A DNA stretch of 57,262 bases from Deltaproteobacteria bacterium (GTDB lineage Bacteria > Desulfobacterota > Desulfobacteria > Desulfobacterales > ETH-SRB1). A model generated the notes under the pieces. It did not search any database. It was not told the DNA's origin and saw only the letters and a list, made by a program, of their open reading frames with translations. How positions within the stretch are numbered: position 1 is the stretch's first letter; the number at the start of each line of letters is the position of its first letter. A program made the position numbers and the translations under genes. Location of the stretch: positions 1-57,262 of the forward strand of contig JAJSZW010000007.1 of NCBI GenBank assembly GCA_030262895.1, written 5' to 3'. Positions 36,003 through 38,296 of the stretch are shown here, one piece after another.

Positions 36003-36803
36003 TCACTTCACCTCAAAAGTCATAATAGAAGCATATTGGCCTACATCGCACTCCGCTTGATCTTCATAATGCTCCTTATGCGGCACCTTGACCCACCAGA
36101 TACCCGGATTTGTGATACGAATCATGGCAATGCCCTTATGATCAGTTTTGGTAGTATAAGCGTAGTCTTCTCTTGTTGAAAATCCGATATAGGTGGCATA
36201 TACAAATTCACCTTTAAGCGGTTCGCCTTTGAATAGCACTTTAACAGGAAGATATTCGCCTGACTTGAGCAGACACGGATCCTTTTGCGGCACCATCTCA
36301 ATTGTCTGATCCAATACGGTTTTGTAAGCATCCCCGCCTGGTTTTCCAGCATGAAAGATCGCCTTGGCAAAAAACTCAATGTAACGGCAGCTTATGGCAT
36401 CCGGAACGTCTTTCTTGCTTTGCATTTTCCTTCCCTTAGGGGTCGTGCTTTTAAAAATCGGCTTCATCACAACGCTTGCCATATATGTTCCTTCTGATCG
36501 CAGACTCAACGGAACGCCTATTGTATTAAAAAACGATTCAGGATTGGGCTTTTTGAGTTCAAAATCCTTCTTGTTTCCTGATGGATCAAGATAATAAAAC
36601 TCCTTCATATTTTCCGGTCTTCCAAGATCGTCAAAAGGAAGCGAATGCGCCAGGTACAGAAATACCTTTGCTGTCCCGCCGACCCTGTGAGAATAGTGAT
36701 CAAGCGCCAGCCAGAGGTTGTGCGCTTTTGCCTGTGAAGCAATTACCGACAACAGCACAACTAAAATACAAACCTTCAACCACGATCTTTTTTCTTTTTT
36801 CAT
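36003..36803 (-). CDS. DUF4198-family periplasmic protein
   Basis: Signal peptide; AHNLWLALDHYSHRVGGTAKVFLYLAHSLPFDD...KTDHKGIAMIRITNPGIWWVKVPHKE. Confidence 0.85.
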   Translation of the reverse strand: MKKEKRSWLKVCILVVLLSVIASQAKAHNLWLALDHYSHRVGGTAKVFLYLAHSLPFDDLGRPENMKEFYYLDPSGNKKDFELKKPNPESFFNTIGVPLSLRSEGTYMASVVMKPIFKSTTPKGRKMQSKKDVPDAISCRYIEFFAKAIFHAGKPGGDAYKTVLDQTIEMVPQKDPCLLKSGEYLPVKVLFKGEPLKGEFVYATYIGFSTREDYAYTTKTDHKGIAMIRITNPGIWWVKVPHKEHYEDQAECDVGQYASIMTFEVK

Positions 36804-38296
36804 TTTTGTTCTCCTTTTAACCTCACAGTTTCATCAAATATCTTCTTTCTATCAAGTTCAAGCCAGTAATCTATTGACAACTTACGGATATGTGCAAAAT
36901 ATTCCCGGTTCAATCCCCCATATGTTTTAAGTGCAGCATTAATATCTTTTTTGATTTTGTTGAGCACATCTTTCTTGATCTCTAAGGTCAGTTTTTTGTT
37001 GCCGTAGATGAAGATAGCCGCTGCTTTCGGATTTTGTTCTAAAACCTCAATAGCGCCCCGGCCAAGACTCGCGCCGGTTGCTGCCTGGAGCCCGTCATTC
37101 ATACAGCTCAAGGGAGGCGATTTTCCTGTAATCGAAATGACATTGAGTTCGTCAAAAGGAGCTTCCAGAATCTCCCGAGCCCTTATTCCCATCTTGGCTC
37201 CAACGATTGAATATATCCCAAGGTGACGGTGAAACTCGTTGGTCAAAAGGCAGGCCTTCCACTCCTCAAGGCCATGTCTTTCAATGATTCTTTTCACATA
37301 CGGCCTGACATCTTCTTTAAACATGGATGGATCAACAGGAAAGTTATTCAGAACCACTGCCGTCCGTCGGTTCAGGTGAAGGTCGGCAGAATAATCCAAA
37401 AGCTTCAAATACGCTTGCTCAACAAGATCGGTTTTGAAATCTGCAAGAACCATAACACGAGCGCTCTCTTCCTCTGGCGCGAGCTTGAACAAAGATGGGT
37501 AATTCAGATAGATTATCGTCATTTCATCCCACACGCGAAAATGATTATTATCCAAAAGACCTGATATCACCGGTGTATCGTGAAGAGTAGTTACGATATG
37601 CGCTGCACGCGTATGCATAGTCTTTATCCTGTCGTAGAAATTTTGATCAAACAATAATGATTTCTCTTGAGGAATATGGAGTGAGTGGATATTCAGGCCG
37701 GATTTGAAAACAAGATCGGCTGATTCGCGATCTCGTGTATAGTTCCAATCAGGATCCAGGGCGCCGGGAGGAGTTCCGTAGAATATGACTCTTGAGATCT
37801 TTTCTTTTACAGTTGGATCCAGGCGGATTGCATCAGCCAGATTTGTTAAAGGCCCAAGGCAAAGATAGATTACCTGTTCCGCTGATCCGTTGAGGGTTTT
37901 CAGAATTGCATCTGTCGCTGATGGAATTTTCGTTGTCTCGATAGTGATTGTGGATGACTCAGGCCAGTTCAGGTTTTCAGACCACGACCTCCAGGGAGGG
38001 GCGGGTTTTCCCAATGTCCTTCCAGCAACAATATCTGTATCCCTTTTTTCAAAATATTCCAGAAGTATCCTCAGGTTGCGATACCCGGTCTGCGGTGAGA
38101 CAGCGCCGTCAGAGCAAACAATCAAAGGAACGTCAACCCAATCGGAATTTAAGACCATAGTAAGCGCCCGAATATCATCCAGAGCCATGTCTGTATCAAT
38201 CAGGAGTGAAATTCTGTGCGTATGTGCTCCTGACTGAGAAGCAAAAAAAATGATCAGACCAAGCGCCAATATGGATACAAATCGCGTTTTCCTCAT
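36800..38296 (-). CDS. Exported fusion: nucleoside-hydrolase (IUNH-like) domain plus C-terminal FmdE-like domain
   Basis: ISLLIDTDMALDDIRAL, VIYLCLGPLTNLADAI; C-terminal FHRHLGIYSIVGAKMGIRAREIL...PPLSCMNDGLQAATGASLGRGAI. Confidence 0.75.
   Translation of the reverse strand: MRKTRFVSILALGLIIFFASQSGAHTHRISLLIDTDMALDDIRALTMVLNSDWVDVPLIVCSDGAVSPQTGYRNLRILLEYFEKRDTDIVAGRTLGKPAPPWRSWSENLNWPESSTITIETTKIPSATDAILKTLNGSAEQVIYLCLGPLTNLADAIRLDPTVKEKISRVIFYGTPPGALDPDWNYTRDRESADLVFKSGLNIHSLHIPQEKSLLFDQNFYDRIKTMHTRAAHIVTTLHDTPVISGLLDNNHFRVWDEMTIIYLNYPSLFKLAPEEESARVMVLADFKTDLVEQAYLKLLDYSADLHLNRRTAVVLNNFPVDPSMFKEDVRPYVKRIIERHGLEEWKACLLTNEFHRHLGIYSIVGAKMGIRAREILEAPFDELNVISITGKSPPLSCMNDGLQAATGASLGRGAIEVLEQNPKAAAIFIYGNKKLTLEIKKDVLNKIKKDINAALKTYGGLNREYFAHIRKLSIDYWLELDRKKIFDETVRLKGEQK

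Follow-up and report, generated by a model that had tools for sequence, protein, structure and literature searches.

The stretch of DNA analyzed here, referred to as the window, is 57,262 nucleotides in length. It contains a minus-strand gene (36800-38296) that encodes a 498-amino-acid precursor in which a nucleoside hydrolase (IUNH) domain is joined to an FmdE domain. The gene begins with an ATG preceded by an AGGAGG ribosome-binding site, and its stop codon and the start of DUF4198_a, the next gene downstream, overlap by 4 nucleotides. Residues 1-24 (38225-38296, minus strand) form a signal peptide, with cleavage predicted between A24 and H25 from the alignment and a simple signal-site predictor. 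The IUNH domain occupies residues 31-275 (37472-38206, minus strand) and matches the Pfam profile IU_nuc_hydro at 91.9 bits against a cut-off of 34.2 (hmmscan, E 7.7e-26). The FmdE domain occupies residues 355-487 (36836-37234, minus strand) and matches PF02663 at 48.3 bits against a cut-off of 22.9 (hmmscan, E 1.4e-12). The exported IUNH and FmdE fusion reported in the initial annotation is therefore real, with both domains above cut-off on one polypeptide behind a signal peptide.

Structure prediction, which the initial annotation had put forward as a check, supports both folds. A phmmer comparison with solved structures pairs the N-terminal part with nucleoside hydrolases and the C-terminal part with the FmdE structure 2gvi. 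The full-length AlphaFold2 model, built with 27 natural homologues, has a mean pLDDT of 87 and a pTM of 0.60, and resembles the nucleoside hydrolases 1yoe and 3g5i (Foldseek, E 1.6e-15, prob 1.00). When the C-terminal domain was modelled by itself (pLDDT 86, pTM 0.86), its only matches were the FmdE structures 2gvi and 2glz (Foldseek, prob 1.00, E 1.1e-7 to 2e-5), so its FmdE-like nature stands.

The fusion architecture is kept in 33 loci from Desulfobacterota, Aminicenantes, Acidobacteria, Verrucomicrobia, and others, and is thus not an assembly artefact. No description of the family was found in the open-access literature searched, nor did literature searches return a paper pairing FmdE with a nucleoside hydrolase or FmdE with TonB. 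The FmdE fusions listed in PMC2954224 are only to PF00994 and UPF0066 (PF01980). One copy of the fusion (L037, 9974-11119; the same gene is seen in G071) is broken: it contains one TAA, and its FmdE part lies in different frames.

The fusion sits in a minus-strand run of approximately 17 kb, extending from 44456 to 27349. The run contains (in order of transcription) DUF4198_b (43665-44456), the TonB-dependent receptor TonB_d (41543-43585), a selenocysteine (Sec) TonB-dependent receptor (39348-41432), the exported tetrapyrrole-methylase-like protein TPm_b (38337-39230), the fusion, DUF4198_a (36003-36803), and the exported FmdE protein FmdE_b (34693-35874). It continues with TonB_b (32526-34658), a second exported tetrapyrrole-methylase-like protein, TPm_a (31641-32513), an APC-family permease (30134-31522), an Slp outer-membrane lipoprotein (29621-30133), and a further TonB-dependent receptor, TonB_a (27349-29646). 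Pfam matches identify the DUF4198, FmdE, TPm_a, permease, and Slp genes, and TPm_b was assigned by PF00590 (3.6e-28) and CbiF structures. Both DUF4198 proteins have a mature N-terminal His, as described for this family (PMC12537917). The permease is kept beside the fusion in Desulfobacterota, as seen at the loci of relatives.

Upstream of the run are the energy-coupling genes TonB, ExbD, and ExbB (44968-46734, minus strand; ExbB and ExbD identified by sequence and homologues) and a NicO nickel/cobalt transporter (49148-50977, minus strand). The periplasmic N-terminal domain of the NicO transporter has a predicted mature start at a His (SCA|HDVQ), and resembles the "anglerase"-permease fusions of PMC12537917. 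Between these genes, beside ExbB, a 621-amino-acid exported protein (46792-48657, minus strand) contains D-x-[DN]-x-D-G repeats with an EF-hand-like look, and a homologue occupies the same place in L023. The other side of the run carries plus-strand genes for a NikL-like protein, a ZnuA/ZnuC/ZnuB-like ABC importer, a second NikL-like protein, and a ZnuA-like protein (20458-25944), and for another exported FmdE protein, FmdE_a (26153-27274). All three FmdE genes found by a family search of the genome lie within the window. FmdE_a and FmdE_b both have the complete HxHxC + C motif, and share a similar-looking N-terminal region of approximately 190 residues with no Pfam match. TPm_a and TPm_b have signal peptides and a CbiF-like fold, and are also kept beside the fusion in Desulfobacterota. 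They may be ligand-binding proteins, since a periplasmic SAM-dependent methylase makes little sense. A family search found no NikR in the organism's own genome (85% complete), and regulation by NikR was dropped as an explanation.

The receptor beside the fusion contains in-frame UGA codons at 39999-40001 and 39993-39995. With UGA read as Sec, it scores 1281.6 bits against the NCBIfam family NF049944 (PUIUD motif type), which has a cut-off of 850, and SelB is present in the genome. Most Desulfobacterota relatives have one UGA at the same place, and two of these, read through, match the PCPU type. A frameshift or assembly error was rejected because the in-frame UGA recurs at this place in at least 13 relatives and the receptors match NCBIfam Sec receptor families. 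Such families are already catalogued in NCBIfam, and a sister type, FCYXU, is listed in a 2026 review (PMC13188914). No link between them and Ni/Co uptake was found in the open-access literature searched.

Solved FmdE structures (2glz, 2gvi, and 3d00; Axelrod et al. 2010, PMC2954224) mostly held Zn. In 2glz, a Zn/Ni mixture is bound by His15, His17, Cys19, and Cys55. Three of these four ligands (H356, H358, and C398) are invariant in the 27 aligned members of the fusion family. The fourth, Cys19, is Gly in 27 of 27 (Gly360 in the protein of the window, which reads FHRHLG in place of the FHGHxC motif of the B8FYU2 type). C398, D401, Q404, and R413 are invariant as well, with spacing identical to that of Cys55, Asp58, Gln61, and Arg70, and the Thr67 equivalent is Ser or Thr. 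The FmdE pattern given in the initial annotation therefore holds for the domain, its fold, Cys398, and the residues that follow, but the first motif is degenerate (HRHLG for HxHxC), and the wording "H-x-C/G" masks the replacement of Cys by Gly. This Cys is not required for membership of PF02663, as the solved Q2LQ23 has Ala at the position (PMC2954224). A lipoprotein FmdE at L075 reads HGHIGPY, with Gly at the Cys19 position as well, so this ligand has also been lost outside the fusion family. The fusion further differs from the solved proteins in being exported, in lying behind a nucleoside hydrolase, and in having no C-terminal zinc finger. Like the fusion, the majority of PF02663 genes adjoin metal-ion transporters, not C1 genes (PMC2954224). 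The metal-related role suggested in the initial annotation is supported by this context, and the "C1-type" role is not.

The residue that follows the predicted cleavage site, His25 (codon at 38222-38224, minus strand), is invariant in 27 of 27 fusion members, and A24 precedes the cleavage in 31 of 32. A crude signal-site predictor placed His at +1 in 23 of 27 members of the fusion family and 21 of 23 DUF4198/NikL proteins, against 8 of 169 among the remaining exported ORFs. DUF4198 is a secreted protein that binds Ni2+ through its mature N-terminal His with a Kd of 18 nM, has a lower affinity for Zn and Co, and has TonB and NikR genes adjoining (Nat Commun 2025, PMC12537917). The fusion resembles this and other N-terminal-His periplasmic Ni proteins in its His right after cleavage, in its TonB and Ni/Co transporter neighbours, and in sharing the operon, but the DUF4198 fold is unrelated, and PMC12537917 names neither FmdE nor nucleoside hydrolases.

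Four relatives (L041, L044, L045, and L046) consist of a signal peptide, the His, and FmdE only, and the mature N-terminal His is present in 4 of 4. An FmdE-domain tree places them inside the fusions, and its supported branches require at least two changes, so the nucleoside hydrolase domain was probably lost on at least two occasions, with His and FmdE retained. This retention suggests that the mature N-terminal His belongs functionally with FmdE. CbiM follows three of the four genes. The stand-alone set is limited to these four; L085, whose signal is ambiguous, and L048/L084, which lack a signal peptide and have one stop in the frame searched, were excluded, and searches of Verrucomicrobiota and Bacteroidota returned almost no further IUNH-less relatives.

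The IUNH domain carries DTDMALDD at residues 34-41 (38174-38197, minus strand). The initial annotation took this for a changed form of the canonical Asp motif, but the published fingerprint of nucleoside hydrolases, enzymes that cleave beta-N-ribosides, is DxDxxxDD, and all four Asp are kept (PMC8910321). Its reading of the motif as metal-competent agrees with an intact Ca site, in which D34, D36, D40, D41, and the last Ca-ligand Asp, D257, are invariant in 27 of 27 aligned fusion members, as is N185. The residue before D257 (W256-D257, 37526-37531, minus strand) is Trp in 26 of 27, one of the three residues (His, Trp, or Cys) expected at this leaving-group position and a signature of the group II purine hydrolases; group I has His there, and the group II (IAG) enzymes have two Trp in place of group I His residues (PMC8910321). 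The PPW-loop position is W in 19 members, F in four, Y in one, V in two, and C in one, and is thus aromatic in 24 of 27. Cys146 is invariant in the fusion family. The residues N39, N160, E166, and N168 of characterised nucleoside hydrolases are taken here to be ribose contacts. Among the 27 members, the N39 position is A, V, S, G, or I, the E166 position is G, D, S, N, or A, and N160 is gapped, leaving only the N168 equivalent. Since the first three positions are lost or variable, ordinary ribonucleosides are doubtful substrates of the fusion. The domain therefore shares with group II IAG-type members of PF01156 (Degano 2022, PMC8910321) the fold, the fingerprint, the last Ca-ligand Asp with its preceding Trp, and the Asn168 equivalent, but differs in the lost equivalents, the invariant Cys146, export, and placement in a metal-uptake operon.

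The neighbourhoods of relatives were compared using fetched flanks, which are shortened on many contigs and to which the gene counts given here refer. A CbiM, DUF4198, NikL, NicO, or UreH-like gene is carried by 20 of 33 fusion loci, and several others carry a TonB receptor. Five loci (L032, L035, L039, L042, and L047) have no recognised metal gene and no TonB receptor in these flanks. None of the listed gene types, including TonB, was found at five ordinary IUNH loci (L051-L055). The inner-membrane partner varies, being the APC permease in Desulfobacterota, CbiM in Verrucomicrobia (directly downstream of the fusion in L043 and L049, nearby in L040), and, in L036, a UreH/DsbD_2-like protein. 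L063 lies in a one-contig genome, where a NikM-type cluster (CbiQ-CbiM-NikL-DUF4198) and CbiO adjoin the TonB-fusion pair. The NikKLMQO and CbiMNQO energy-coupling-factor importers (PMC11247825) are thus genomic partners of both the fusion and its stand-alone FmdE relatives, and the fusion would be an extra extracytoplasmic component not described for them in the literature searched. ZnuABC-like genes are present in L030 and L033, and L030 also has a ModA-like gene. In L065 (5961-6830) and L066 (6228-7097), a Tat-exported DUF169 protein, named after the Pfam match of this gene in L027, precedes the TonB-fusion pair, and a 571-amino-acid gene just upstream encodes an exported protein with no Pfam match.

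The fusion probably serves the high-affinity acquisition of nickel (or cobalt) as an accessory protein outside the cytoplasm. A role in Ni/Co capture and hand-over is proposed because DUF4198 binds Ni, because PF02663 genes lie beside metal transporters, and because of the conserved residues described above. The TonB receptor would carry a metal-ligand complex across the outer membrane, and the exported fusion would take the metal and hand it on with the N-terminal-His partners DUF4198 and NikL. It would then be received by an inner-membrane importer, which may be the APC permease here and CbiM/NikM-CbiQO, NicO/UreH-type, or FecCD proteins in relatives. The FmdE domain would form the metal-handling core via His356, His358, and Cys398, with the fourth ligand, missing at Gly360, probably supplied either by His25 or by the ligand that arrives with the metal. 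The putative contact between His25 and the FmdE site has to be weighed against the intertwined dimer that FmdE normally forms.

The IUNH domain, lying between His25 and FmdE, would most likely recognise an organic chelator through a diol. We favour gripping of the chelator via the Ca site over cutting, since some lineages do without the domain and several substrate residues have gone. XopQ offers a precedent for a nucleoside-hydrolase fold acting as a ligand binder; its type has no known activity and, like the fusion, keeps the Ca site while other active-site features are lost (PMC8910321). XopQ differs in having no leaving-group activators, where the fusion family has Trp, and in its biology. 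The role of the IUNH domain is the weakest link of the Ni/Co explanation, and its strikingly conserved catalytic core would be compatible with an active enzyme as well. Also counting against this explanation are that the sequence does not tell Ni from Co, that ZnuABC-like and ModA-like genes are nearby as well, that five fusion loci have no recognised metal gene in the fetched flanks, and that no NikR was found in the genome (85% complete).

An active enzyme is the basis of the first alternative, in which IUNH acts in the periplasm as an N-ribohydrolase and cleaves a metal chelate containing a nucleoside, such as a nucleoside-type metallophore or a nickel-pincer-type nucleotide, and FmdE catches the freed metal. 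The invariant Ca ligands (D34, D40/D41, D257, and N185) and the retention of the domain over long divergence are in its favour, as are Trp256 and the PPW-loop aromatic, which resemble group II, where Trp stacking activates the leaving group. Against this, the presumed ribose contacts N39, N160, and E166 are lost or variable, the domain was apparently dropped in at least two lineages that kept FmdE, with three of the four such proteins beside CbiM, and these organisms are not known to have a nucleoside metallophore. On balance, this alternative is unlikely.

The same architecture could instead serve another metal (zinc, copper, molybdate/tungstate, or a soft metal), with the receptor Sec handling it. 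The mostly Zn-bound FmdE structures, the weaker binding of Zn and Co by DUF4198, the ZnuABC-like genes in the window, L030, and L033, and the Sec content of the receptor are compatible with this. Zn-type genes recur less than CbiM, CbiQ, NikL, DUF4198, and NicO, which are Ni/Co families recurring across phyla, and a different metal is accordingly rated as quite unlikely. A bolder idea, offered as a long shot, is that anaerobes import whole metal-cofactor molecules via the Sec TonB receptor and dismantle them in the periplasm, as an unrecognised metal-scavenging pathway. The tetrapyrrole-methylase-fold proteins would hold the macrocycle, IUNH would cut or grip the ribosyl part, and FmdE and the N-terminal His would capture the metal. 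Possible cargoes include Ni- or Co-tetrapyrroles and a nickel complex that bears a nucleotide.

The initial annotation proposed that the fusion removes the nucleotide loop of imported cobamides. An IUNH fold, TonB receptors, and exported CbiF-like proteins do occur together in one operon, and TPm_a and TPm_b leave a small chance of some tetrapyrrole link. The glycosidic bond is a mismatch, the base of a cobamide being alpha-linked and the riboside cleaved by nucleoside hydrolases beta-linked. Rfam gave no match in the window. Four cobalamin riboswitches were found elsewhere in the same genome, two of them in tandem upstream of genes for a TonB receptor and for a BtuF-CbiZ fusion, followed by ExbB/ExbD-like genes (L060, G000 contig 50). 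The BtuF-CbiZ product is a single protein with a BtuF-like binding domain joined to CbiZ. Cobamide import and nucleotide-loop removal would thus be handled at that separate, riboswitch-controlled locus. The loci of 18 relatives contain one cobalamin riboswitch in all, which lies at the far edge of L063 and faces away from the cluster. Cobamide regulation of the fusion cluster was rejected on these Rfam results from the window, the genome, and the relatives. Neither B12-responsive regulation nor the cobamide-gene neighbours of a CbiZ-like role were found for the cluster, whose neighbours are Ni/Co transporters (CbiM, CbiQ, NikL, DUF4198, and NicO), and the proposal is very improbable. Plain nucleoside salvage with an incidental FmdE tail is hardly credible, since homology to IUNH, the APC permease, and a "Gate" nucleoside-recognition-type permease next door in L039 are set against an invariant mature N-terminal His, an FmdE site better conserved than the base- or ribose-contact positions, a metal-transport context, and no nucleoside-metabolism genes among the recurrent neighbours examined.

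Outside methanogen operons, no assigned function for FmdE was found in the literature searched, despite structures available since 2010 and metal-transporter neighbours. The fusion family ties FmdE to Ni/Co importers and provides a concrete candidate site in which the invariant mature N-terminal His would join two His and one Cys. Recruitment of a nucleoside-hydrolase fold to metal uptake is suggested as well. Under the Ni/Co explanation, the Sec TonB receptors catalogued by NCBI would be linked to nickel and cobalt acquisition in anaerobes of sediments, which need these metals for their hydrogenases, CO dehydrogenases, and corrinoid enzymes.
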